This document shows positions 3,039-31,716 of a DNA stretch of 31,716 bases, one piece after another (positions within the stretch are counted from its first letter, which is position 1; each line of letters starts with the position of its first letter). A model generated the notes under the pieces. The model was not told the origin of the DNA, ran no database searches, and saw only the letters and a list, made by a program, of their open reading frames with translations. Position numbers and translations under genes: made by a program. Source of the DNA: a virus; the IMG/VR virus record IMGVR_UViG_3300038366_000072, positions 1 through 31,716 of that record; one strand, given 5' to 3'.

Positions 3039-4199
3039 ATGAAAGTTTCACAACTAATCAGGTCTGATTCTAAACAGACTTTTGAGAAGGCTTGGAAGGA
3101 TCACGGTATTGAAGCCGTGAAAACTGATGGGCAGTCAGGAGTAACTGCACCTGTTCAGGATGTCCTTTCACACAACAAAGAGAAAACCCAAGAATACAAA
3201 GGAAGTGTCAGGAAGGCTGCAGCTGAAATGGCTACAAAGTCCACTATGGACTCAGGTAGGACAGAGAACTTTACTCCATTAATCTTCGATCCTGAGATAG
3301 TATCCATTCTGAAGCAGAATGCACCTGTACTTGATGTGATCCCTGAGGAAGGTCAGGAAGGATTTGATGCTGTCTACAATATTGTAGATGCACGTGATGA
3401 TCCGATTGGATACACGTCAGAAAGCGATGCTGTAGATCTTACAAACAACAGTCCTAACGGAGTCACGTTTGCTAAGGACAGTGTTGACATGACAATTTAC
3501 ACTGACTTGATTGAGATCTCAGACTTTACGCAGGAGGCAGCTGCTCACTACATGAATGTCCGTGAGACAACTCTTGGTGAGAAGGTTGCGCAGCATGCAC
3601 AGCGTAAGGCACAGCAGATCTTCTACGGTGATCCGTCACAAGATACGCAGACTGGTTTCCTTGGAGATGCTGAAGGCTTCAAAGGTCTCACAGGATTTGC
3701 CAGTGATGCAGGTAATGTCACTGATAAGTCCGGTGTCTCAACTGGATTTGTTAAGGACATTAAGTCTGTAGTCCGTGACATCAGGCAGGAGGAGAATGCG
3801 AATATCAACAATCTCAGGATTCATGTAAGCCATGAGTTCTATGATGTACTTGAGAATGAGGCTGACTTTGATAACCTGACTACTGATGCGGATACAGGTG
3901 AGCTGAATGTTGGGCTTGATGACGGAGGCCTAAGTATTGGAGGTGTTCCTGTAGTTCCGACTCACAACATTGACAGCTTCACTGATTCAGGTAACGGCAC
4001 AACGTATAATGCAGGTGATCCTGGTGATGTATTCATATTCAGTAACAGGACTGCAAGATACAGAGCGTTGCTTCCTATGTCAATGGTTCCACTTGCAAAG
4101 AACGGCTTGGCTGATACGGTTGCATTGGCTGAGTTCGGTGCTTTGATTGAGAAGTCACAGGGTAACTTTGTGAGGCATCTTCAGGCTTACAACTTCTGA
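3039..4199 (+). CDS. Major capsid protein, HK97 fold
   Basis: A 386-residue protein immediately downstream of the prohead protease, the standard position for the major capsid protein. The N-terminal 70 or so residues are charged and helix-prone, like a delta-domain or N-arm removed by the protease. The body starts near the FTPLIFDPEIVSILKQNAPV segment, a pattern I associate with capsid proteins of archaeal tailed viruses. It ends in a FGALIEKSQGNFVRHLQAYNF strand-rich tail typical of the HK97 P-domain. Codon use is richer in C and A at third positions than neighbouring genes, as expected for a highly expressed gene. Assignment rests on context and overall pattern. Confidence 0.85.
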   Translation: MKVSQLIRSDSKQTFEKAWKDHGIEAVKTDGQSGVTAPVQDVLSHNKEKTQEYKGSVRKAAAEMATKSTMDSGRTENFTPLIFDPEIVSILKQNAPVLDVIPEEGQEGFDAVYNIVDARDDPIGYTSESDAVDLTNNSPNGVTFAKDSVDMTIYTDLIEISDFTQEAAAHYMNVRETTLGEKVAQHAQRKAQQIFYGDPSQDTQTGFLGDAEGFKGLTGFASDAGNVTDKSGVSTGFVKDIKSVVRDIRQEENANINNLRIHVSHEFYDVLENEADFDNLTTDADTGELNVGLDDGGLSIGGVPVVPTHNIDSFTDSGNGTTYNAGDPGDVFIFSNRTARYRALLPMSMVPLAKNGLADTVALAEFGALIEKSQGNFVRHLQAYNF

Positions 4200-5138: not shown

Positions 5139-5160
5139 TGGAGAGTCGTATACTTTGTTT

Positions 5161-5631
5161 ATGGCTAGTCCGAATAATTTTAAAGAAAGTTTGATGGAAG
5201 CAGATTTTGATCTTGTAAACGATACTATACGTGTAGCACTGTTAAGTGACGACACTGCTTACAGTTTCAGTGCTGACAACCATACTTTTGTAAACGATAT
5301 TATTGATGGAGGTACAACAGCCACGGAGTTTTCAGGTACTGGTTACAGCCGTCAGACTTTGACTAATGTATCGGTGACTCAGGATGATACTGATGATGAG
5401 GGTGTTGCGGATGCTGATGATGTCACGTTTGCTAACTTGAATAATGATACGATTCAGGGTATTGTGATTTACAAGCAGGTGGGCGGTGATGATTCGACTC
5501 CTGGTGATGATCCTGTGATCGCTGTCTATGATAATGATAGTGGTACGACTTTGGCGGATCTGCCTTTACCGACTAATGGTGGGGATGTGACCTTGAACTT
5601 TTCAACTGAGGGAATCGTAAACATACAGTGA
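5161..5631 (+). CDS. Fibre-locus virion protein (tail/decoration family)
   Basis: 156 residues from ATG 5161. The plan is NFKESLMEADFDLVNDTIRVALLSDD at the start, VTFANLNNDTIQGIVIYK in the middle, and DLPLPTNGGDVTLNFSTEGIV at the end. This pattern recurs in small structural proteins of many tailed phages that precede fibre genes. The protein encoded at 28533-29300 has the same plan with an extra inserted domain, and it too is followed by a fibre gene, so the two loci look duplicated. I infer a fibre-attachment, collar or head-decoration role. Confidence 0.7.
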   Translation: MASPNNFKESLMEADFDLVNDTIRVALLSDDTAYSFSADNHTFVNDIIDGGTTATEFSGTGYSRQTLTNVSVTQDDTDDEGVADADDVTFANLNNDTIQGIVIYKQVGGDDSTPGDDPVIAVYDNDSGTTLADLPLPTNGGDVTLNFSTEGIVNIQ

Positions 5632-5644
5632 GGTCTAAAATAGA

Positions 5645-7567
5645 ATGACGGATTTTGTTTTTCCAGAGGATACCGGGACAGGTGCAGGTCAAGGCGATGA
5701 TAATGATGCTGCTAACTTTGGAGCTGCCTATGATGGTATTGGTTTAACTGATTTTGTCGTTAAGGGAATGGGTTTTACTTTGAATGCTGGTACGCCGTCT
5801 CTGGATTTGGGAAGTGGTAAGGCGGTTGTCAGTGATTCAAGTGCTACTGCAACACAGTCAGGTGAAACCAGAGATGAGGGCGTTGCTTTTGTAGTTGAAC
5901 TGGATGCACGTACAGGTATTTCGTTAACAAATTCAGCTGTTAACCACGTGTTTTTGCAGGTGGATTTAAGCTCGGATGACACGGTTAATATTGTCGTTAA
6001 TACTACTAATTCTGCGCCGAGTGAGCCACAGGTTAAACTCGGTACTGTTGACACCTCGAATGATACAACAACAGAGGTGAACAGAGATACACCTCTTCAA
6101 GTTGATGGGTTAAGAGGTGATAATGGTTCAAATGGACAGTTTTTACAAACTGATGGTACCAACCTTAGTTTTGCCTCTGTTCAAAAAGGTATGACGAATA
6201 TTGAGAGGCAGTTACAAAATGATAAAGTTGCAAGCATTGCTCTTTTAGAGTCTAAAAATAATCTCTCTGAAATAGATTATGATGGCGGTTTTTTCGAGAT
6301 TTTCCGTGACGAGTCCAAAATCGTTAATTCGACACAGGTTGCTTTGAAGACTTTGGATTCTGGTAATGCGGAAGGAGTAGCTGAAATATTGGAGAGTTTA
6401 GGAGCGCCAAATAAGTTGATAGAGACTTTGACTGACAGTTCAAACAATATTCAAGCCACTTCTTTGAGCAGTGATTTTCTGGCTGTTGGAAGCAACGATA
6501 ATAATACATATGTTTATGATACAACTAATTTTAATCTTCAGCATACTTTGACTGACAGCTCAGACAATGTTAACGGTGTTTCTTTGAGCAGTGATTTTCT
6601 GGCTGTTGGAAGCAAGGCTAATGTTGTTTATGTTTATGATACTACTAATTTTAATCTTCAGCATAGTTTATTTGCCCCCCAAGACAGGGTTAAGAGTGTT
6701 TCTTTGAGCAGTAATTTTTTGGTTGCTGGAACAGGGTTTGCTGACCAAGATGTCTATGTTTATGATACAACTAATTTTAATCTTCAGCATACTTTGACTG
6801 ACAGTACAGGCAGGGTTAACGGTGTTTCTTTGAGTGCTGATTTTCTGGCTGTTGGAAGTGGTGATGATAATACATATGTTTATGATACAACTAATTTTAA
6901 TCTTCAGCATACTTTGACTGACAGCTCAGACAATGTTAACGGTGTTTCTTTGAGCAGTGATTTTCTGGCTGTTGGAGGAGGTGGGTTTGACAGAGATGTT
7001 TATGTTTATGATACTACTAATTTTAATCTTCAGCATACTTTGACCGACAGCTCAGACAGTGTTAACGGTGTTTCTTTGAATGCTGATTTTCTGGCTGTTG
7101 GAAGCAGTGATGATAATACATATGTTTATGATACAACTAATTTTGATTTGCAAGATACGTTGACTGACAGCTCAGACAATGTTAATGGTGTTTCGCTTGT
7201 TGGTGAATATTTGGCTGTTGGAAGCAGTGATGATAATGCTTATGTTTATGAAAGGTCGCTTTTGTTTGCTGACAGCGGTACTATTGAGTGGAGTAAAGAC
7301 CTTTCACAAGATGGTTTTAGTAATCCTCCTTCAAATGTCGTAACAAGCTGGAATGTTACTTTGCCATCAAATACAAGTATAAGTATAGAGATAGCTGATG
7401 GTAGTGGTAATTCTGTAAATCTAAGCAAGTCTGATATTGATTCAGAGGTTGATTTGTCGCCTTTAACTAGCACTACTTTAGATATTACAGTGACATTAAG
7501 CCAGTCTTCAACTAATGATGACGTGACTCCAACTCTTAATGATTTGATGCTTAACTTCCAAAAGTAA
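5645..7567 (+). CDS. Fibre protein with a seven-bladed WD40-like beta-propeller
   Basis: 640 residues. Residues 1-160 form an attachment module with DNDAANFGAAYDG, LDARTGISLT, NHVFLQVDL and VKLGTVDTSNDT motifs, shared with the fibre protein at 29305. Residues 160-255 are a linker. Residues about 258-538 hold exactly seven repeats of 40-42 residues with the core TLTDSSDNVNGVSLSSDFLA and then VGS...YVYDTTNFNLQ, a WD40-type blade pattern closing a propeller. A C-terminal beta domain follows (WSKDLSQDG to LNDLMLNFQK), typical of phage tail proteins. Blades differ mainly in the turn after AVGS. I infer a host-receptor or glycan-binding spike. Its place among capsid genes allows a head fibre as well as a tail fibre. 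Confidence 0.8.
   Translation: MTDFVFPEDTGTGAGQGDDNDAANFGAAYDGIGLTDFVVKGMGFTLNAGTPSLDLGSGKAVVSDSSATATQSGETRDEGVAFVVELDARTGISLTNSAVNHVFLQVDLSSDDTVNIVVNTTNSAPSEPQVKLGTVDTSNDTTTEVNRDTPLQVDGLRGDNGSNGQFLQTDGTNLSFASVQKGMTNIERQLQNDKVASIALLESKNNLSEIDYDGGFFEIFRDESKIVNSTQVALKTLDSGNAEGVAEILESLGAPNKLIETLTDSSNNIQATSLSSDFLAVGSNDNNTYVYDTTNFNLQHTLTDSSDNVNGVSLSSDFLAVGSKANVVYVYDTTNFNLQHSLFAPQDRVKSVSLSSNFLVAGTGFADQDVYVYDTTNFNLQHTLTDSTGRVNGVSLSADFLAVGSGDDNTYVYDTTNFNLQHTLTDSSDNVNGVSLSSDFLAVGGGGFDRDVYVYDTTNFNLQHTLTDSSDSVNGVSLNADFLAVGSSDDNTYVYDTTNFDLQDTLTDSSDNVNGVSLVGEYLAVGSSDDNAYVYERSLLFADSGTIEWSKDLSQDGFSNPPSNVVTSWNVTLPSNTSISIEIADGSGNSVNLSKSDIDSEVDLSPLTSTTLDITVTLSQSSTNDDVTPTLNDLMLNFQK
6425..7255 (+). repeat. Seven tandem WD40-like coding repeats
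   Basis: Near-identical DNA units begin at about 6425, 6545, 6665, 6791, 6911, 7037 and 7157 (steps of 120 or 126 bp). The stretches encoding TLTDSSDNVNGVSL and YVYDTTNFNLQ are almost unchanged between units, while short insertions and substitutions fall after the AVGS turn. This is expected of recent tandem duplication with gene conversion. Confidence 0.85.
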
Positions 7568-7584
7568 TCAATAACTTAAAAATT

Positions 7585-8088
7585 ATGGACCAAAAAACAA
7601 GTTTCTTAATATTGATGTCATTTATTGCAGGTTTTTCAAGTTCTGCGTTTTTCATAAGTGATTTACAGCCAGAGGCAACTATTAATGTAAACAGGACGGA
7701 AGGTGATATTTCTCAGGTAAATAATATTGAACCTCCAAGATATAATTATATTCAAGCTAATAACCATGATGTAAATTATACTTGGACAGGAGACGAGGTT
7801 ACTGTTGAAGATGTTGACCAAGTTATTGAGGTTCACGGTAGTAGTATGCGTCCTACAAGTTTTACAGGTCATAAAGGTTTAGCCAAGGAATACAGTAATC
7901 AGTCCTTAAGTGAGGGCATGATTGTTGTGACAAAAGAAAACGTCATGCATAGGATTGAAGCAGATTACAGTGATACAGACGGATATTATATGATACGTGG
8001 TGATAATGCAGAGGATTTGAACAGGGTTGAAGATGAAGATATTGATTACGTTGTGATCGGCATGTTATATGATAAGCAGAGCCAATAA
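7585..8088 (+). CDS. Membrane-anchored Sec11-like (S26) serine peptidase
   Basis: 167 residues. An N-terminal hydrophobic segment (about 5-24) is followed by a linker of about 60 residues and a signal-peptidase-like catalytic region. GSSMRPT holds the candidate nucleophile Ser87. VMHRI places a His (H122) where bacterial enzymes have Lys, as in archaeal and ER Sec11. RGDNAEDLNR matches the conserved KGDNN...D box (D140 or D144). All three boxes are in order with normal spacing, so it is probably active on the outer face of the host membrane. The long linker and missing C-terminal membrane segment differ from cellular Sec11. It follows the propeller fibre gene by 17 bases. Substrates are unknown; viral exported proteins or host surface proteins are candidates. 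Confidence 0.75.
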   Translation: MDQKTSFLILMSFIAGFSSSAFFISDLQPEATINVNRTEGDISQVNNIEPPRYNYIQANNHDVNYTWTGDEVTVEDVDQVIEVHGSSMRPTSFTGHKGLAKEYSNQSLSEGMIVVTKENVMHRIEADYSDTDGYYMIRGDNAEDLNRVEDEDIDYVVIGMLYDKQSQ

Positions 8089-8126: not shown

Positions 8127-8684
8127 ATGGCTGATTTAGGGAGTCAAGATCTTGGTGGCGGTACTCTTGGAAGCGATGACAAAAGTATAGGTGTCAGTGA
8201 ATCCAGTGTATCGACCGATAGTCCTAGTGTTGGTTTGTCTGCAGGTGCTACAACTTTATCAGTGGTTGAGACTGGTCTGGTTTTTTCTGTACAGTCTTTG
8301 AACTTGGGTAGTGTTGTTGAGGTTTCTGTTGATGAGACTGTTAACACGGTGAAGGTTGAGGATGTGGATGTGGTGCCGGGTGCTGCCAGTTTACAAGTCA
8401 GTGAAACCACTTCAAACACTGTTAACAACAGTATAGGTGTAACGGGTGGTGCTGTTGACCTAGGTGTAGAGGCTGTCAGCAACATTATATCAGTTTCAGA
8501 TGGTGTCAATGTTTTACCGGGTAATGTAGATGTAGATGTAGCGGAGACTGTATTGTTTACCGACTCAGAGGAGACAGGTATTAAGAATATCTTGAATATT
8601 TCATCTCCGACAAAAGCTATAATTACAAACAGTGATAGGAAAGCATTTTATACATCCAAGGATAGATTTGTAGTATATGAGTGA
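8127..8684 (+). CDS. Repeat-rich beta virion protein
   Basis: 185 residues made of Val/Ser/Asp/Gly-rich repeats (VSESSVSTDS, VSVDETVNTV, ISVSDGVNVLPGNVDVDVAE), much like the proteins encoded at 30526 and 31416/2-781. The C-terminal 35 residues (ILNISSPTKAIITNSDRKAF onward) depart from the repeat and may be an attachment piece. No signal peptide or cysteine. It overlaps the BppU-like gene by 8 bases, so the two are translated together. A fibre, spike or baseplate appendage is likely; family not recognised. Confidence 0.65.
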   Translation: MADLGSQDLGGGTLGSDDKSIGVSESSVSTDSPSVGLSAGATTLSVVETGLVFSVQSLNLGSVVEVSVDETVNTVKVEDVDVVPGAASLQVSETTSNTVNNSIGVTGGAVDLGVEAVSNIISVSDGVNVLPGNVDVDVAETVLFTDSEETGIKNILNISSPTKAIITNSDRKAFYTSKDRFVVYE

Positions 8685-9003
8685 TCAAACATTCAAAGAA
8701 GGTGATCTAGGGGATGAGTTGGAGGCTACTTTGAAGGATGCGGATGGTCCCATAGATTTATCTGCAATTGACAAAGTTGATTTTGTTATGGAGGATAGGT
8801 CTGGTGACAAGGTTTTGGATGAACAGGTTAGTATTGTGAATGGATCTGAGGGCAGGATACAGTATCAATGGTCGCCGGGTGATCCGATTGAGGAGCCGGG
8901 TGTTTACCGTGCTGAGTTCCGTATTACTGACAGTGCCGGTGATACGGAGACTGTACCTAATGATGGTTATGATGTGATTGAGGTTGAGGAGGAGATTAAA
9001 TAA
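8677..9003 (+). CDS. BppU N-terminal-like virion protein
   Basis: 108 residues with the pattern of the phage baseplate upper protein N-terminal domain. FKEGDLGDELEATLKDADGP comes first, DLSAIDKVDFVMEDRSG follows, then YQWSPGDPIEEPGVYRAEFR and a closing strand with PNDGYDVIEVEEE. Such beta-sandwich domains link receptor-binding proteins to a baseplate or capsid vertex. Overlaps at both ends (8 bases with the upstream gene, 1 base with the connector gene) put it in the same translational unit. It probably anchors the repeat protein upstream. Confidence 0.75.
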   Translation: MSDQTFKEGDLGDELEATLKDADGPIDLSAIDKVDFVMEDRSGDKVLDEQVSIVNGSEGRIQYQWSPGDPIEEPGVYRAEFRITDSAGDTETVPNDGYDVIEVEEEIK

Positions 9004-9611
9004 TGGTTGAACCGTTTAATACTGCGGATGATTTACAGGCTCGACTGGGTTTTCTTGGACCGAATCAAGACCAGTTTGATTTAACTGATCGTTTACTGGA
9101 TGCTACTCTGGAGTTGGAGGCTATGATCGGACGTAGTGTTCAGGAGTTGTTGACACCTAGTTTTGATGACCAGAGAGAGTTCCGTTTAACTTACAGTAAC
9201 GTGTTTGAAGTAATCAGGATTGAAATAGTTAGTCCGCATGGTACGCATCCTGAGACGGTTGACAGTTCTGATTTTACGTTGACTCACAGCCCTGAACGTG
9301 GCAATCAACAGCAGCTTGTTTTTGACCAAGTATTTGCAGAGGATCAGTTGTTTAATGAGGATTACAGGCTGCGGATTGTGTATATACCAGAACTGTATAG
9401 GCGTTTGGAGCTGCGGTTAGCTGAACTGGATATTGCTTCTTTGGCGAGTGTTCAGACTGGTGATGATCAGACTGCGGCACGTGCAGAGAAGGCAATGGAT
9501 AGAATGGATGCTTTGATGAAACGTATTAATAGGACGGAGCAGAACTTGGCAGATCCTGATACCGGGCGGAACTTGTCTCCTAACTTTAACTATCCAGGTG
9601 ACCGATTCTAA
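9003..9611 (+). CDS. Head-tail connector / adaptor protein
   Basis: 202 residues. Its position between the capsid region and the HK97 gp10-like gene is that of the adaptor (gp6/gp15-like) that docks under the portal. Helical ends (DDLQARLG...LLDATLELEAMIG at the start, RLAELDIASLASVQTGDDQTAARAEKAMD later) flank a beta region with REFRLTYSNVFEV, which fits the family. Three bases separate it from the next gene. The assignment is mainly positional. Confidence 0.7.
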   Translation: MVEPFNTADDLQARLGFLGPNQDQFDLTDRLLDATLELEAMIGRSVQELLTPSFDDQREFRLTYSNVFEVIRIEIVSPHGTHPETVDSSDFTLTHSPERGNQQQLVFDQVFAEDQLFNEDYRLRIVYIPELYRRLELRLAELDIASLASVQTGDDQTAARAEKAMDRMDALMKRINRTEQNLADPDTGRNLSPNFNYPGDRF

Positions 9612-9613
9612 GG

Positions 9614-9889
9614 ATGTTGAATCTTACTGATGAGGGCCGTAAAAAGTTGAATAATGCTGTCCGTAAAAAGGGTTTTAAGGTTGTTAGGAAGGCTAAAGGT
9701 AATGCACCTGTTGATACTGGACGTTTACGTGCAAGCATTAGTTTGGAGGAGGAGTTTTTAGGTAATGGCTTGGTGAAGGTTTTAGTCGGATCTAATGTTG
9801 ATTATGCACGTTTTGTTGAGTTTGGTACTGAGAGTCAGGTTGCACAGCCTTATTTGCGTCCTGCTTTGCGTGAGGTTGCTCAGGAGTAA
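9614..9889 (+). CDS. HK97 gp10-like head-closure / neck protein
   Basis: 91 residues with the hallmarks of the HK97 gp10 family: NAPVDTGRLRASI in the first half, and VDYARFVEFGTESQVAQPYLRP near the end. In other siphoviruses this protein sits at the head-tail interface and helps join tails to filled heads. Its length is at the short end of the family (usually 100-150) but both signatures are complete. It is followed by a T-run and a 140-base gap. Confidence 0.88.
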   Translation: MLNLTDEGRKKLNNAVRKKGFKVVRKAKGNAPVDTGRLRASISLEEEFLGNGLVKVLVGSNVDYARFVEFGTESQVAQPYLRPALREVAQE

Positions 9890-13139: not shown

Positions 13140-15209
13140 GTGGTTAACCTGTCAAGACGGTTCAAGCTCGAGTATGAGGATGCGTCTAATGGTACAACCA
13201 TCATTGCGGAGACAGGTCAGGATACTGGTGCTGCCAAGATTAATAGGCACGTCCATATTTTACGTAAGAATGATCCTGATATTTTGAAGCTGCGTCTTGA
13301 AATAGATGATTACGGTAACAATATTCCTACAGATAAAAGCCAGTATGCTCAGGCGCAGAATGGAACTGATGATCCTGAGATTTTGTATAAGCAGTTTGAC
13401 CGTGATACACAGAGTTTTGTGACGCAGGGCAGGTTTTATGCTAAGAACTCGGGTGCTGTGAATGAGGATGGGGAGTTGGCTGTAAAGCTTTACAGTTTCC
13501 TGAAGTTTCATGCAAAGGGTGAGGTCAGTGTTTCTGAGACAGGTGATACGTTGTCGGCTATGAATCAGGCTTTACCCAGTGGTTATGTGGCTGTTGATCC
13601 TACTGGCGGTGTATCTTTGACAGGTGAGTATAATTCTAATGGTAGAAGGGAGCAGGCTTTCCAGGAGTTGACACGTAATTATAATTATGCGTTGACGTTT
13701 ACCAGTGAGCTTGATGCTAATAATGATTACAAGGTGCGTTTTGAGCCTGTTGGTCAGGGCGGTACAGTCTCTACCTTGGTTGACCGTAATCAGACAGGGC
13801 GGTTCCCGATTGTAGATATTGACACGGTTAATGATAGTTTCTCTGTAGCAGGTGATAAGACAGGTGATCTTGTTGTTGATCAGGTGATACAGGTTGAAGG
13901 CAGTACAGGAAATGATGGCAGTTTCACCGTTACTTCAACATCTTTTAATTCAAGCAGTAACGAGACTGTGATCAGTGTTTCTGAGAATGTTTCAAATTCT
14001 ACTGCTGATGGTTCGGTGATTCCTGGTGGTTCAGCTAAAGTTAAGTCTTGGGAGAAGAATAAGACTGATAACGTGATTAACAAGGTAACTGTAACAGGTG
14101 TGAATAAGAAAACAGGGAATCAGGTGACAGCTACTGCAAACAACAACAGTATACAGAATAAGATCGGTGTAAAAAGCCGTGATAATGTTAAGATAGGTTA
14201 CTTGAATGCCTCAAGTGATTCTGATGCAGAAAGTGATGCTCAGGAAATCGCAGAATCTCTTTTGCGTCCGGGGAAAGGTATCAGTGAGTTACCTGAGAGC
14301 GGACGTGTAAAGACTCCTGTGTTCAGTGATAATATTGTTAATGATAGTGTGCAGTTTGTCAGTAATCGTTTGAATATTGATGATACTTTTACTGTGAAGG
14401 AGCAGAGAAACTTTTTCCCTGAAGGTGCGTCTGAGCTTGACCTGAATTTTGAGAAGGAGGGTTTGGAGGGTGCTGCAAGGCAGAGCCAGAACCTGAGGGA
14501 TGAACGATCACGGCTTTTATCCAGTAGTCAACAGGATGTTGGTAATCAGACGGTGGATGGTAATACGGAGAATGTATCCGATCAGTACGATAGTCATAAT
14601 GCTGCGCAGGGAGATCATGATGTTGAGGGACAGACGTTTACTGAGACTACTGATGATACTGAAACTAATGAAGGACGTGCCACTTTCGGTAATGTCTCAC
14701 CTGGAGGCACAATCAGCTTGGAAATCAACACTGATTTTGTAAGCGGTGAGACTGATGTAGCGTTTCTTTATTTTCAGGCATCGGTGTCAAAAAATGCAAG
14801 TTTTAGTGATGGATGGGATCTTAAGATAGAGAATAATGATACAGGTACAACATACTTCAACGAGTCTAATTTTATCACGGGAGCTGCCACACCTACAAAT
14901 GGTGTAGTTACTGCCTCTACTTTAGCTATTACAAGTGAGAAATTGGAGGGTGATGAAATAGATTTTGAGTTTACTAATCAGACTGGTGCGGATTCTGATG
15001 TTCAGGTGAATGCTGCGGTTGCACAGTTATCTGATTTTTCAATCAATATTCCGAGTGATCCTGATGGTGCGCAGCCTAGAAGCGATGGATCTACTAATAC
15101 GACTAACAGCAGTGACAGTGATGCAGGTGATACGTCTAGTTTGGATACTGATGGTTCTACAAATCAGAAAGATGTAAATATACCGGATGAGGATAAAGTT
15201 AATAGATGA
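13140..15209 (+). CDS. Tail hub / tail-associated (Tal-like) protein
   Basis: 689 residues from GTG 13140. The N-terminal 200 residues have hub-like beta structure (RFKLEYEDASNGTTI, ILRKNDPDILKLRLEIDDYG). A domain at about residues 225-300 with VEGSTGNDGSFTVTSTSF and SVSENVSNSTADGS is inserted; the protein at 28533 has the same small domain. The hub continues to about residue 450 (LRPGKGISELPESGRVKTPV). The last 230 residues are acidic, Asn/Ser/Thr/Asp-rich and beta-prone, suggesting a surface-exposed tip. It probably closes the tube and contacts the cell. It overlaps the next gene by 4 bases. Confidence 0.72.
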   Translation: MVNLSRRFKLEYEDASNGTTIIAETGQDTGAAKINRHVHILRKNDPDILKLRLEIDDYGNNIPTDKSQYAQAQNGTDDPEILYKQFDRDTQSFVTQGRFYAKNSGAVNEDGELAVKLYSFLKFHAKGEVSVSETGDTLSAMNQALPSGYVAVDPTGGVSLTGEYNSNGRREQAFQELTRNYNYALTFTSELDANNDYKVRFEPVGQGGTVSTLVDRNQTGRFPIVDIDTVNDSFSVAGDKTGDLVVDQVIQVEGSTGNDGSFTVTSTSFNSSSNETVISVSENVSNSTADGSVIPGGSAKVKSWEKNKTDNVINKVTVTGVNKKTGNQVTATANNNSIQNKIGVKSRDNVKIGYLNASSDSDAESDAQEIAESLLRPGKGISELPESGRVKTPVFSDNIVNDSVQFVSNRLNIDDTFTVKEQRNFFPEGASELDLNFEKEGLEGAARQSQNLRDERSRLLSSSQQDVGNQTVDGNTENVSDQYDSHNAAQGDHDVEGQTFTETTDDTETNEGRATFGNVSPGGTISLEINTDFVSGETDVAFLYFQASVSKNASFSDGWDLKIENNDTGTTYFNESNFITGAATPTNGVVTASTLAITSEKLEGDEIDFEFTNQTGADSDVQVNAAVAQLSDFSINIPSDPDGAQPRSDGSTNTTNSSDSDAGDTSSLDTDGSTNQKDVNIPDEDKVNR

Positions 15210-25179: not shown

Positions 25180-28158
25180 ATGAGTGGCGATTTTATATCT
25201 TTGAAGGATTCTGAGAGTAAGGCAACTATCTCCGGTATCGGTGGACGCTCCACGCAGGGTATCAAGGGTGCTAAGTCCAGCGTGTTTTACAATGATTCTA
25301 TGGATGGTGAGCCAAGGCATGATGACCTGTTCGCAGTACGTTTGCTGGGGCGGACTGGTTATATTGAGATGGCTAAGGATATTATCAAGGATCAGGTTGC
25401 ATCTACGGATTTCCATGTGAAGCCTATGATCCCTGAGGGCGTGGATCGTGAAGTATCTAGACGGGAGCAGGATGCGGCTGATGCCATGACACAGTTTTTC
25501 AACGGAAACTTCAATACTGATAATCAAAGTTTTGATCATTTGCTGAAAGCGGTTTTGAATGATGTCTTGGATTTTAACACGGCCTGTATTGAACTGGTGT
25601 CTGATGATGATGGCTACCTGCAAGAACTGTTGGTTAGGGATGGCTTGACTTTTACTAAGAATGTTAAGGATGTTGGTAAGTTACCAAGTCCTGGTAGTGA
25701 TGATCCGGCGTATTACCAGTTTAGTTTGTCAAGTCAGGCTAAACAGTTTTTCAGGAGTGATCGTGAAGGTATTGACATCCGTGATATTACCAGTGAACTT
25801 GGTAGCATGGGTTTCAATAAGGTTTTCAGCCGAGATACCCGGAAGTTTAGCCGTGATGAATTGGCGTGGTTTGAACTTGATAATCGTACTGGTGCGGCGT
25901 ATGGACGTGGTAAGACGCAGAAGGTTAAGAAACAGGCTGAGAACTTGATTAACGGTGATGTTCATAGGACACGGTTCTGGAATGATAATGAATACCACAA
26001 GGGTTTCCTGAATGTACCTGAGACCATGAGCCAGAACCAGCAGCAAAAACTTAAGGAGCGGTTTCATGGTACCGCTGGAGATGAATACGAACTACCTATT
26101 ATCGGTGCGGAGGATGCTGATTACGTAAGTATTGATCCTAATCCTGAGGAGATGCAGTTCCTTGAGAGCCATAAATTCTTCACTAAATTATCGCTCAGTA
26201 TCTATGGTTTGAATCCTAATGAGGCAGGTTTTGTAGAAGATAGCTCCCGGAACGTCAGTGAGCAGCAACAGAAGAATGTCTGGAATCGTACTACGCAGCC
26301 AACCTTAGAGATGATTGAACGTGTGTTTACGAATCAGATCTTGCCGTTTATGCGTGAGTATGATGCGGTTGACATTGATTTTGAGTTCTGTTTCAAGCCT
26401 CAGAATGACTTTTTAGAACAGATTGAGAATGAGATGATTGAGCAGGAAGAGTCAATAGGTACTTTGACTTTGAATGAGGCACGTGAGCGTAAGGGTAAGG
26501 AAGGGTTTGGTGAGATCGGTGAGTTGCCTAAGGAGGCGTTTGACAGTTTGGCTACTCAGAATCCGGGTTTTGTTGCTGAGAAGTTTGGTATTGAGGATGC
26601 GCCGCAGAATGAGCCGGGTGGCGGTCCGTTGTTTGGTAACAGCTACAACAATAACGACAACGATAACAATGATGATGCTACGGACAATGGTGATGTAAGA
26701 GATGGCGATGACAAAGATGGACGTGAAAGAGAATACGGAGAAGGAGATCGACAAAACTATAATACGGATACAGAAGTAAAGGATAAAGCTGTTGAGGATG
26801 TTGATTTGACTCCTCCTGATTTTGTTGTTCATGCTGCGGAAACAGCCTTGGAGAAGAAACAGGAGTTCAGTGATGAGGTAGGTGACTGCGGTACAGGTGT
26901 AGGAGAAGATCGTGCCAAGAAGATTGTTAATGATAATTTAGAGCCTGAGGATTTTTTAGGTGGTGAGAATACTGCGATACCTGATTATCTGGAGAGCCAT
27001 GAGGAGGATGTAAACGGTCTTAACAAGCCTGTAAGTGAGTGGACTGATGATGACTGGACTGGTAGATCTGTCTCGAGTGATGGTAGTCCTCGTTGTGGTC
27101 CTGTTCAGTATGCGTTGTGGGGCGGCCAAAGTACAGGTGAGTCTTTAGAGTGGGCTAACGGTACAGAACAGGAGCTTCAAGATGCCATGGAGGATGAGGA
27201 GCAGGATAGTGTAAAAGAAAGTAACGGAGGTGTCCGGGATCAAAGCACCTCCTCAAGTATCAGTGGTTACCGCAGTGCTTTCAAGAATGTTGATGCTGTC
27301 TTGGAGATGACTAAGGATGCTTTGCGTAATCAGCATGGTTTTGATGATGTGGACGGTGTTGTAAGCCAGAAGGAAGATCTTAAGCATGATGTTGCTACTG
27401 TTTTTGAGTCCATCCAGTTAAGGGATATGGTGGAGGAGGAGTTTCCTGAACAGAAGCAGGATAGTGAGTTACTTGTTGATGCTGATTCTGTTTTAGATAG
27501 TGTTGGTTTCCGTGATCGTTTGGCATCTGTTTTGGAGTCACGGAATTTGGAGACTTTGGAGTTATCGGCGGAGCATCATAAACAGGATATTGAAAGTGAG
27601 GCGGAGGAGCGTTTGAATGTTCCTAGTGAGGTCAAAGTTGAGCTCGGTTTTGATGTTTTTGATACGTTTACAGCTGATAAGATACGGGAGGAGGCGTTGC
27701 GCAATGCTACTGTAATAGAATCAAGTGTTAAGGACCGTTTGCGGAGGGAGTTGTTGGATGCGGCGGAGGCTGGTGAGGGCATACCTGATGTTATGGATAG
27801 GGTTCAAAAGGTGCAAAGTGATATAAGTGATAGTCATGCGGAGCTAGTGGCTCGGACTGAGACTTTATCAGCCAGTCGTAAGGGAAGTCAGGCATTAGCA
27901 GAGTCTACGGACTTGGTTGGTGGCAAAGAATGGATTGCTACCAGTGATTCAAGGGTTCGTGAGTGGCATAGGGTGATGGATGGGACTGTTGTGGAGAAGG
28001 ATGATGTTTTTACTGTTCCACAGGTCTCCGGCAGCAAAGGTTTGTCACGTAAAGAGGCTGATTCACGTATTGACCTAGAGTTTAAGAAGGAGAAACTGGA
28101 TTTGATGAGTAAGAAGAAGCGTTTGTTAGATGACTTGGTTGATGAGGAGGCAGGTTGA
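25180..28158 (+). CDS. Portal protein fused to the front part of a MuF domain
   Basis: 992 residues. Residues about 1-450 are the portal: N-terminal SSVFYNDSMDGEPRHDDLFA, the central DFNTACIELVSDDDGYLQEL, and FFTKLSLSIYGLNPNEAGFV typical of phage portals. An Asn/Asp-rich linker lies near 485-520. A small domain at about 545-650 (CGTGVGEDRAKKIVNDN, ending in RCGPVQYALWGG) resembles a module often found in phage head proteins. The helical front of the MuF domain follows (HAELVARTETLSASRKGSQA, GKEWIATSDSRVREWHRVMD). After FTVPQ the expected end with NCRC is replaced by a basic coiled tail. That end is encoded at 811-1128. Confidence 0.9.
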   Translation: MSGDFISLKDSESKATISGIGGRSTQGIKGAKSSVFYNDSMDGEPRHDDLFAVRLLGRTGYIEMAKDIIKDQVASTDFHVKPMIPEGVDREVSRREQDAADAMTQFFNGNFNTDNQSFDHLLKAVLNDVLDFNTACIELVSDDDGYLQELLVRDGLTFTKNVKDVGKLPSPGSDDPAYYQFSLSSQAKQFFRSDREGIDIRDITSELGSMGFNKVFSRDTRKFSRDELAWFELDNRTGAAYGRGKTQKVKKQAENLINGDVHRTRFWNDNEYHKGFLNVPETMSQNQQQKLKERFHGTAGDEYELPIIGAEDADYVSIDPNPEEMQFLESHKFFTKLSLSIYGLNPNEAGFVEDSSRNVSEQQQKNVWNRTTQPTLEMIERVFTNQILPFMREYDAVDIDFEFCFKPQNDFLEQIENEMIEQEESIGTLTLNEARERKGKEGFGEIGELPKEAFDSLATQNPGFVAEKFGIEDAPQNEPGGGPLFGNSYNNNDNDNNDDATDNGDVRDGDDKDGREREYGEGDRQNYNTDTEVKDKAVEDVDLTPPDFVVHAAETALEKKQEFSDEVGDCGTGVGEDRAKKIVNDNLEPEDFLGGENTAIPDYLESHEEDVNGLNKPVSEWTDDDWTGRSVSSDGSPRCGPVQYALWGGQSTGESLEWANGTEQELQDAMEDEEQDSVKESNGGVRDQSTSSSISGYRSAFKNVDAVLEMTKDALRNQHGFDDVDGVVSQKEDLKHDVATVFESIQLRDMVEEEFPEQKQDSELLVDADSVLDSVGFRDRLASVLESRNLETLELSAEHHKQDIESEAEERLNVPSEVKVELGFDVFDTFTADKIREEALRNATVIESSVKDRLRRELLDAAEAGEGIPDVMDRVQKVQSDISDSHAELVARTETLSASRKGSQALAESTDLVGGKEWIATSDSRVREWHRVMDGTVVEKDDVFTVPQVSGSKGLSRKEADSRIDLEFKKEKLDLMSKKKRLLDDLVDEEAG

Positions 28159-29304: not shown

Positions 29305-30267
29305 ATGGCTTTCACCGACACGGATATTACTGCTTATGCTTTTCCGCAGGATGGCGCAAGTCCGGGGATAGCTGATACGGATGCGGACTGGAATAATGCG
29401 GCGTTTTTAGGTGCGTTGGCTAAGGCTAAGGCAAATAATTATGCTCCGCAGGGCTTGGATATTGTCACGGATCATGTTAATGAACAGTTTACTTTGACTG
29501 CTGGACTGGCTTTTATTGAGGATAAGGAGAATATACCGTTCAGGTTGTTTTCGGACAGTGAGATTAACAGGAGTGAGGTCTGGACCACGGGCTATATTTT
29601 GATGGTTGAGACTGAGGAGGAATCCAATATTTCTTTTGAGACAACTACAGGTAAGAACTTTGTCTACCTCGGGTTTACAAGACAGGCGCAGAATGACGTA
29701 TTTGTCCGTGTTGCTGATGATGAGGCGGATGCTCCAAGTAAGTCTGTTAAACTTGGTGAGATTGATGCTTCTGCGGATAGTAAACGTGAGCAGAACCGTG
29801 TTGCAGGTTTTCAGTATGAGTTTCTTGGTAAGAGAAGTACAAACGGTTTTGTAAACCAAGCCGACCTTGCGATACCTGACAGCAGCTTCGACGAATACAA
29901 GATAAAATTCATAAACGTCGAGGGTGATGCAGCAAGCGGTAACGTCACACTGCTTTCAAGAGTCAGCAACGTAAACTCCGGATCATACTTTTTCCGTACA
30001 ACACAGAATAATACACAGCAGGCAACCAGATTCAAATTATACCAGGGAAGACCGGACAGGTTCGGTATAAACGGTGAGTTGTTCGTATCGCAGAAAGGCG
30101 GCTTATTCACATTCGACAACCGGCTGACGTCCAACCAAGAGAAGCAGTTCGCATTCTCCGGAGGAAGCACAGATCCAGCGATAACACCTTTATCAAGTCT
30201 TCAACTGTTTTTCACGTCGGGGCAGATTAACGCAGAGATAAACGTATGGGGTAGAAACAATTTATGA
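29305..30267 (+). CDS. Second fibre protein, shared anchor with a swapped tip
   Basis: 320 residues. The first 180 follow the same plan as the propeller fibre (5645): DADWNNAAFLGALAKAKANN, NFVYLGFTRQAQNDVFVRV, and KSVKLGEIDASADSKREQNR. From about residue 185 a different beta-rich domain follows (FDEYKIKFINVEGDAASGNV, RFKLYQGRPDRFGINGELFV), resembling a jelly-roll tip. Third-position bases switch from G/T-rich to A/C-rich at the same point (about 29855), suggesting that the tip came from another genome. It ends in LQLFFTSGQINAEINVWGRN. Probable receptor-binding protein. It overlaps the next gene by 4 bases. Confidence 0.72.
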   Translation: MAFTDTDITAYAFPQDGASPGIADTDADWNNAAFLGALAKAKANNYAPQGLDIVTDHVNEQFTLTAGLAFIEDKENIPFRLFSDSEINRSEVWTTGYILMVETEEESNISFETTTGKNFVYLGFTRQAQNDVFVRVADDEADAPSKSVKLGEIDASADSKREQNRVAGFQYEFLGKRSTNGFVNQADLAIPDSSFDEYKIKFINVEGDAASGNVTLLSRVSNVNSGSYFFRTTQNNTQQATRFKLYQGRPDRFGINGELFVSQKGGLFTFDNRLTSNQEKQFAFSGGSTDPAITPLSSLQLFFTSGQINAEINVWGRNNL

Positions 30268-30525: not shown

Positions 30526-31416
30526 ATGGGACGTATAAATACGAATGCAAACGGGGCAACAGGAAGCACAAGACTTGCAGGTAAAAGATTGTCGTTCCCT
30601 GACTTTCAGAGAAGTGAGTCAATTTCAGGTGAGGCTTTGTCCAGTGTTGAATTACCTGTTTTATCCTCTATAGCTGATGCTGATTCAGGTGAGGCTGTTG
30701 GTAGAGCCGATGTTCCGACTATTAGTGTGGTTCATGATTCTGTTACTGGTGAAGGTGAGGCCAGAGGCGATGTACCTGAGTCACGGATCGTGCATGATGC
30801 TACTACTGGTGAGGGTACTGCACGTGCGGATATTCCTGAGACTTTAGTAGTTGCAGATGCAACAAGTGGGAGAGGCTTAGCTACAGCCGATATTCCTATT
30901 ACACGGATTGTACATGATGCGGATACAGGTGAGGCTATTGGCACCGCAGATATTACTGTCAATAGGGAGGTTAGTGATGTAAACCAGTCAAGGGCTGATG
31001 CTGAGGGCAGTATTTCTAACAGTATATCTATCGCTATCTCTCAGGCAACGGATTCTGATGCTGTTGCACGTGCTGATCTCTGTATTGTTACTTATCTGGC
31101 AGGTCTTGGAGGTACTGTGGTTTTTGAGGAAGGTGGTCCGGGTGTGGAAGGCGCTGAAGTCCATATAATAAGAAACAACGATGACACCAAGGTTGCTACA
31201 ACCACGACAGATGCTGACGGTCGGTGGCATGTGACTTTACCTGGAGGTAAAACTACGGATCCGGATCCTGAGGTGTACAGTATAGAGGTCTGGTATCGTG
31301 AGGGAGCTAAAAGAGATAAGAATACCGAGCTTTACAATGCTGAGAATCGGCCTTTCATTGATACAGCTGATCCATCTGAACGTGATCCGTATGAGGATGA
31401 TAATATAGAGAACTGA
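30526..31416 (+). CDS. Repeat fibre protein with a CnaB-like domain
   Basis: 296 residues. After a short lead, residues about 29-150 hold six 20-residue repeats on the pattern VHDATTGEGTARADIPETLV. Residues about 194-265 form a CnaB or carboxypeptidase-regulatory-like beta domain (GGTVVFEEGGPGVEGAEVHI, TTTTDADGRWHVTLPGGKT). An acidic tail follows. Such repeats form rods and CnaB domains act as rigid spacers or carbohydrate-facing units, so a virion spike is inferred. The last base of the stop is the A of the next ATG (TGATG). Confidence 0.72.
   Translation: MGRINTNANGATGSTRLAGKRLSFPDFQRSESISGEALSSVELPVLSSIADADSGEAVGRADVPTISVVHDSVTGEGEARGDVPESRIVHDATTGEGTARADIPETLVVADATSGRGLATADIPITRIVHDADTGEAIGTADITVNREVSDVNQSRADAEGSISNSISIAISQATDSDAVARADLCIVTYLAGLGGTVVFEEGGPGVEGAEVHIIRNNDDTKVATTTTDADGRWHVTLPGGKTTDPDPEVYSIEVWYREGAKRDKNTELYNAENRPFIDTADPSERDPYEDDNIEN
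30610..30975 (+). repeat. 60-bp coding repeats, about six copies
   Basis: Tandem units of 60 bp encode the 20-residue repeats of the protein at 30526. Repeat borders are marked by GATGC/GATTC (Asp) at the start of each unit. The units are diverged in DNA, unlike the WD40 repeats, so this array is older. Confidence 0.65.
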
Positions 31417-31716
31417 TGGCACGTTATGATCCACCTAAGGACTGGTCTGAGACAGAAATAGTTCTGCAGGAGTATGATCCTCCAAAGGATTGGAGTGAGA
31501 CAGTTATCAAGTTGGATCCTGATACAGGTCCTGATATAACTATACAGAACAGCCAAGGTATAGGCGGTGAGGCTGAGGCTGATGGCAGTTTATCCAGTTC
31601 TCAGGTTAAGTCAGGTATCAGTGTCTCTGATGCTGAATCTGTTGGCAGTGTCTCTGATTCAAAGGTTCGGACGCAGATCTCTCAGGGTAAGGCTGTTGCT
31701 GATGCTGATGTTTCTT
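31416..31716 (+). CDS. Repeat-rich virion surface protein, 5' part (continues across the junction at position 2)
   Basis: Starts at ATG 31416, one base overlapping the upstream stop. The N-terminus carries a near-perfect internal duplication (YDPPKDWSETEIVLQE, then YDPPKDWSETVIKLDP), probably an attachment motif repeated twice. The frame is open at the window's right edge and in register with the frame at position 2, so the two are one gene on the circle. Relative to the left-hand copy it has D-A-E-S instead of R-G-E-I in one repeat. Confidence 0.72.
   Translation, partial: MARYDPPKDWSETEIVLQEYDPPKDWSETVIKLDPDTGPDITIQNSQGIGGEAEADGSLSSSQVKSGISVSDAESVGSVSDSKVRTQISQGKAVADADVS
31463..31716. repeat. 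Terminal overlap, right copy (circular assembly)
   Basis: This is the right-hand copy of bases 1-254. Nine of the 11 differences fall in a 21-base patch. There they change the encoded residues R-G-E-I of the left copy to D-A-E-S here, while the flanks on both sides are nearly identical. The patch lies inside a repeat-rich surface protein gene. Confidence 0.8.

Follow-up and report, generated by a model that had tools for sequence, protein, structure and literature searches.

The locus is an open reading frame (ORF 5645-7567, plus strand), which reads in a single frame from an ATG start and encodes 640 amino acids on the 31,716-base IMG/VR virus contig IMGVR_UViG_3300038366_000072; the whole of this stretch was analysed and is called the window below. 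The predicted product comprises an N-terminal anchor, a linker, an array of seven repeat units and a C-terminal domain (Table 1). The gene comes after the major capsid gene (3039-4199) and before the connector genes (9003-9889); it does not adjoin the hub, and the window has a hub-like ORF at 13140-15209. The upstream neighbour of the fibre gene, ORF 5155-5631, is also weakly similar to the podophage GP4 fibre protein gp80 (Pfam Gp80, below cut-off).

The linker gave no match in the Pfam search and probably includes a helical part. The C-terminal domain is probably a beta-sandwich. Two candidate relatives of this domain, an adenovirus fibre (E 0.015 only) and the Halobacteria sequence L062 (a transporter-type protein lacking fibre features), were rejected as looking like chance matches. 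As a tentative lead, the propeller may be inserted in one split beta-sandwich, with DYDGGFFEIF before and GTIEW...LNF after it. Directly 3' of the fibre gene, ORF 7585-8088 (167 aa) carries a membrane segment and the motifs SSMRPT...MHRI...RGDNAED, which resemble archaeal signal peptidase (NCBIfam TIGR02228, E 8e-4, under its cut-off).

Table 1. Coordinates of the fibre gene features and of associated genes in the window
Feature	Position	Strand	Remarks
phrog_644 structural gene	5155..5631	+	phrog_644 E 4e-22; adjoins fibre ORF
N-terminal anchor, residues 1-158	5645..6118	+	HFTV1 gp42 tail-fibre base family
Linker/stalk, residues 159-248	6119..6388	+	from sequence; fibre-like stretch GQFLQTDGTNLSFA
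Predicted seven-bladed WD40-like propeller, residues 249-539	6389..7261	+	Pfam, AlphaFold2, Foldseek, VIA-align
Repeat unit 1	6401..6514	+	
N-terminal D strand, model strand 7-15	6407..6433	+	completes blade 7 (velcro closure), from model
Repeat unit 2	6515..6634	+	
Repeat unit 3	6635..6760	+	42 residues; two-residue B-C loop insertion
Repeat unit 4	6761..6880	+	
Repeat unit 5	6881..7006	+	42 residues; two-residue B-C loop insertion
Repeat unit 6	7007..7126	+	
Repeat unit 7	7127..7246	+	
C-terminal domain, residues 540-640	7262..7567	+	no significant relative found
BppU N-terminal-domain protein, baseplate-type	8677..9003	+	Pfam BppU_N 25.3 bits, cut-off 23.1; in the fibre's cassette
Second gp42-type fibre	29305..30267	+	anchor + standard gp42-like head, no propeller; PDB match E 1e-5

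The virus and its two gp42-type anchors

The portal-MuF, protease and major capsid proteins of the window were related to those of HRTV-28 (Suolaviridae, Pormufvirus), with tblastn E-values of 7e-53, 6e-32 and 2e-50, identities of 29-44% and a gene order that is the same only if the ends of the window join. The virus is predicted to be a distant relative of HRTV-28 that belongs to a different genus. Its predicted proteome is acidic (median protein pI 4.47), as in extreme halophiles. The preliminary description had taken the DNA for that of an archaeal virus, which is borne out by the HRTV-28-related portal, capsid and protease together with the acidic proteome; the same features support halophilic archaea as the putative hosts. 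It should be added that, at 43%, the G+C content of the window is lower than is usual in haloarchaea.

The two ends of the window (positions 1-254 and 31463-31716) share 96% identity over 254 bases and show small differences, so the genome, at about 31.46 kb, is probably near-complete and either circular or terminally redundant; nevertheless, end repeats do not figure in the classification of the record. The portal-MuF gene is apparently split, ORF 25180-28158 matching HRTV-28 gp10 up to 6309 and ORF 811-1128 from 6322 on. With the ends joined, a cassette of approximately 4 kb that includes the second fibre would be placed inside the MuF domain, just before its CRC motif.

Residues 4-157 of the fibre protein matched the base of the HFTV1 tail fibre gp42 in its solved structure (phmmer to PDB 9h7v and 9h5b, E 1e-8), a homology that is well supported computationally. 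The earlier reading of the product as a fibre agrees with this match, spanning the first 158 residues, and the N-terminal anchor foreseen there is present, though it is of the archaeal gp42 type and not of a generic phage type. The anchor aligned furthermore with phiH1 gp33 and with ORF 29305-30267, and a profile of the family found HFTV1, phiH1, HCTV-1 and HCTV-16. In phiH1 the domain stands alone as a protein of about 190 residues encoded beside the tail-fibre genes, and stand-alone proteins of this size occur in several IMG/VR contigs. In HCTV-1 and HCTV-16 it sits within longer proteins, two per genome; in HCTV-16 the baseplate hub gene is directly followed by one of the two, and the second shares a cassette with a BppU_N gene. 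In HFTV1, three gp42 trimers extend outwards from the hub of the baseplate (PMC12494034).

The fibre protein shares with HFTV1 gp42 (9h7v, 9h5b; PMC12494034) the base of approximately 158 residues, the fibre layout and the origin from a tailed virus of a halophilic archaeon; in gp42, however, a beta-helix, a stalk and a different head follow the base, and there is no propeller. The alignment with ORF 5645-7567 covers the anchor alone, the gp42 head being absent. The full-length gp42 counterpart in this genome is ORF 29305-30267, in which both anchor (blastp E 1e-9) and head (E 2e-4) align. Because only its anchor aligns with gp42, ORF 5645-7567 is assigned to the gp42 anchor family and not to the whole gp42 family, and since ORF 29305-30267 aligns over anchor and head, the propeller protein is, by homology, an additional fibre beside a standard gp42-type one. 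Repeat-rich proteins follow the second fibre (30526-31416 and the window-end ORFs 31416-31715 and 2-781); an example of their repeated unit is ...DADTGEAIGTADI..., and a CarboxypepD_reg-like domain lies toward the end of 30526-31416.

Predicted propeller fold and relationships among the blades

The repeat region matched Pfam WD40 (PF00400) with 50.8 bits, summed over the repeats, against a cut-off of 27, and its sequence matches in the PDB were WD40 proteins, with the repetitive propeller 2ymu on top. As repeats inflate WD40 scores, a one-blade profile was searched too; it returned 21 matches, mostly WD40 chains, with a best E-value of 3e-4. AlphaFold2 was run with an alignment of five sequences: that of the window, one from Brocadiaceae (L008), two stretches from Pirellulaceae (L009) and one from IMG/VR (L025). 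The best run reached pLDDT 90.0 and pTM 0.88, with pLDDT of 85-90 across all five runs. In this prediction, seven blades are built from 28 strands, ordered D-(ABCD)x6-ABC, and close by a 1+3 strand arrangement. Foldseek matches of the model were all WD40 propellers. VIA-align superposed it on 2ymu with Z 43.0 and rmsd 1.6 over 279 residues, on a designed seven-bladed propeller with Z 42.0, and on WD40 chains overall with Z 38-43 and rmsd 1.4-2.6 over 267-290 residues. The TM values to a designed seven-bladed propeller were 0.90/0.91.

The propeller model depended on the aligned WD40 relatives: AlphaFold2 without them produced an inconsistent, solenoid-like model with no propeller match (pLDDT 29-78), which the aligned model superseded. 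The closure proposed earlier for a seven-bladed WD40-like propeller was thus obtained (pLDDT 90), but with relatives in the alignment, the five single-sequence runs disagreeing among themselves. The canonical GH and WD dipeptides and the D-H-S/T-W tetrad were not found, VYVYD standing at the WD position and GH being absent; we use the label "WD40-like" because both dipeptides are missing. Many accepted WD40 repeats also lack the GH/WD signature. We conclude that the outer part of the fibre very probably folds, as modelled, into a closed seven-bladed WD40-like propeller, a reading well supported by the computations above.

The seven tandem units occupy 6401-7246 and measure 38 (the first, partial), 40, 42, 40, 42, 40 and 40 residues; Tandem Repeats Finder delimited an array at 6425-7251 with a period of 120 and 6.8 copies, far beyond chance. 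The count of seven given in the preliminary description stands, but "almost identical in DNA" was an overstatement: pairwise identity ranges from 0.56 to 0.92, and only blades 2/5 (0.90) and 4/6 (0.92) are near-identical pairs, blades 1, 3 and 7 having diverged. The longest stretch repeated exactly, 110 bp, recurs 366 bp (three blades) further on.

Variable motifs in the turn after AVGS had been quoted before, and they are present, but the A-B turn and the D-A loop vary as well. Among units 2-7 the B-C loop (mean residue difference 0.65) and the A-B turn (0.64) differed most, followed by the D-A loop (0.47), and the C-D loop hardly differed (0.05), so that between-blade variation falls mainly on three of the four loops. 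Which face each loop belongs to was taken from what is generally known of WD40 propellers. Taken together, top-face loops varied more than bottom-face ones (permutation p 0.002), a result resting on the conserved C-D loop, and the A-B turn, a bottom-face loop, equals the top-face B-C and D-A loops in variability; the variation therefore points to no single binding face. Synonymous and nonsynonymous differences in the variable loops were of the same order, giving no support for selection for change. Retroelement-driven variation was considered and rejected, as the Pfam and PHROGs scans, which took in the larger ORFs and part of the small ones, gave no reverse transcriptase.

Blade identity inside this protein was 0.67, versus 0.28-0.43 to the blades of other proteins, and across propeller proteins it was 0.55-0.68 within and 0.28-0.48 between proteins. 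Computed in this way, the relationships fit repeated amplification or gene conversion. Continuous amplification has been described in all major propeller lineages (PMC9218822). Moreover, the A+T content of the genome is highest across the propeller, the C-terminal region and the next gene (6000-8000), where G+C is 0.35-0.37 versus a mean of 0.433 (sd 0.026), some 2.5-3 sd below it; this lowest G+C suggests that the propeller stretch may have been acquired from elsewhere.

Related propellers in archaeal genomes and known viruses

Among 292 Halobacteria-class genomes searched with the propeller, 10 had a match. The best was in a provirus (L059/L061), where a 356-aa ORF (L059:7360-8430) lies between the tape measure gene (phrog_1533, E 1e-100) and a hub-like ORF, part of which matches the HFTV1 hub (E 4e-6); terminase- and portal-like genes of this provirus were assigned from sequence. 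Its propeller is 41% identical to that of the window over 263 residues, with seven compact blades, and starts at strand B instead of D, which is a circular permutation. The two proteins have in common the compact A-B turn, the seven units and, for the provirus ORF, a place in the tail module; unlike the window's protein, that of the provirus has no gp42 anchor, puts strands BCD first and A last, and lacks a C-terminal domain. Furthermore, IMG/VR contig 3300046025_000059 (L024/L025) encodes, after its tape measure, a 1,022-residue ORF that opens with a beta-helix-like part and also holds WD40 blades and other beta domains; the anchor domain is found at another place on this contig. The L059 provirus and this contig are two more haloarchaeal viruses with predicted WD40-type propellers in their tail regions.

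WD40 was not detected in 16 reference haloviruses (13 plus HRTV-28, HFTV1 and phiH1), where a separate profile search (A3) had no positive control. IMG/VR pattern scans with the whole protein, the propeller and the N-terminal half gave no relatives, a tblastn search of all phage records with the propeller as query yielded Vibrio phage nt-1 alone, and weakly, and no paper on propellers in archaeal virus fibres turned up in the literature searched.

A viral receptor-binding propeller had been thought unusual; it is indeed uncommon, but not new, such propellers being known from phi11 (five-bladed), PhiKZ gp131C (seven-bladed) and PRD1 P2 (PMC4901313). The receptor-binding protein of Staphylococcus phage phi11, a trimer of stem, propeller and tower whose propeller was proposed to hold the receptor sugar, resembles the window's protein in carrying stem, propeller and C-terminal domain on one chain; it differs in being five-bladed, in having glutamine cyclotransferase and not WD40 as its closest DALI match, and in coming from a bacterial phage (PMC4901313). 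PhiKZ gp131C (PDB 4GBF, cited in PMC4901313) is likewise seven-bladed and peripheral on a virus baseplate, but belongs to a bacterial myophage, and the likeness comes from its description and not from a structural comparison. Nostoc 2ymu and the WRAP designs (PMC6805158, PMC9218822) share similar blades amplified from one unit, seven blades and Z of 42-43, and differ in being bacterial or designed proteins and no viral fibre heads. What is new here is a WD40-like, blade-repetitive propeller on an archaeal gp42 anchor; propellers of phage receptor-binding proteins were known already. Repetitive propellers of the 2ymu/WRAP kind carry more of the canonical GH-WD signature.

Proposed role of the fibre and alternatives

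On balance we favour ORF 5645-7567 as an accessory baseplate fibre, a homotrimer with the WD40-like propeller as its host-recognition head. The virus would be siphovirus-like, with halophilic archaea as hosts, and the gp42-type N-terminal domain would dock on its baseplate; a short stalk would lead on each chain to a closed seven-bladed propeller and then to a small C-terminal beta domain. We infer that the fibre is homotrimeric and sits most likely on the tail baseplate, where it would work beside the second fibre (29305-30267), with a common anchor and the usual gp42 head on the latter. Loops of the propeller faces would touch the host S-layer or its glycans, which are the first receptor candidates because HFTV1 probably uses the S-layer glycoprotein as its receptor (PMC9973310); receptor binding by the propeller is proposed from its position and by analogy with phi11. 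The propeller may have arisen by amplification of one blade, partly homogenised by inter-blade recombination or gene conversion, and a change of specificity through blade recombination is plausible.

Host recognition by tailed archaeal viruses is poorly understood: few receptors have been identified, the S-layer glycoprotein being one, and few determinants of host range are mapped. Built compactly from repeats and set on a known anchor, the head described here is a directly testable candidate for a receptor-binding module, and it offers a natural case of recent propeller amplification within a virus. More tentatively, and with considerable doubt, haloarchaeal tailed viruses may share an exchangeable WD40-like recognition head, its surface renewed by blade amplification and recombination; if true, this would be a route of host-range change that needs neither an invertase nor a diversity-generating retroelement.

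The foremost alternative, though rather improbable in our judgement, is a head fibre or turret-like spike making the first, reversible S-layer contact, in which the propeller would still bind the surface. Such a role has been proposed for the HFTV1 turrets, and binding of HFTV1 by both head and tail was reported (PMC12494034, PMC9973310). A head position would suit a gene near the capsid genes and away from the hub, in a genome that already has a standard gp42-type fibre; a tail position is argued for by the anchor, which in the solved structure is a tail-fibre anchor, by the baseplate-type BppU_N gene in the cassette and by the provirus propeller gene lying between tape measure and hub-like gene.

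It is unlikely that the propeller serves as a structural spacer or docking platform, in the manner of podovirus nozzles, and leaves binding to the C-terminal domain. The seven-bladed propeller of the phage SU10 nozzle protein does have a structural role (PMC9509320), and the C-terminal 101 residues lack a known relative, as is common in fast-evolving tips; yet the L059 provirus protein ends at its propeller, and loops vary strongly between blades, though weak constraint would give the same.

An assembly artefact in the blade count or array of this metagenomic contig is quite improbable: at the 110-bp exact repeat a short-read graph might add or drop three blades, but many positions set the blades apart (56-92% DNA identity), the frame is open throughout, the count is the canonical seven with exact D-strand closure, and the relatives have seven as well. 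A beta-solenoid in place of the propeller is hardly credible, for only the best single-sequence AlphaFold2 run points to it (pLDDT 78, the other four at 29-64), against propellers at 85-90 in all five-sequence runs and WD40 matches of the single-blade profile.

Apart from the genes discussed above, a seven-unit WD40 protein is encoded on a plasmid of Natronorubrum daqingense (L004:3759-4880), and the two-residue insertion in the B-C loop of blade 5 is common to it and the protein of the window (GGWVFDGEVY vs GGGGFDRDVY). Two adjacent haloarchaeal ORFs, L060:7157-8353 and 8422-9450, have a near-identical N-terminal module of about 35 residues followed by different propellers (PQQ-like and WD40-like), an arrangement that resembles head swapping on a fixed N-terminus.
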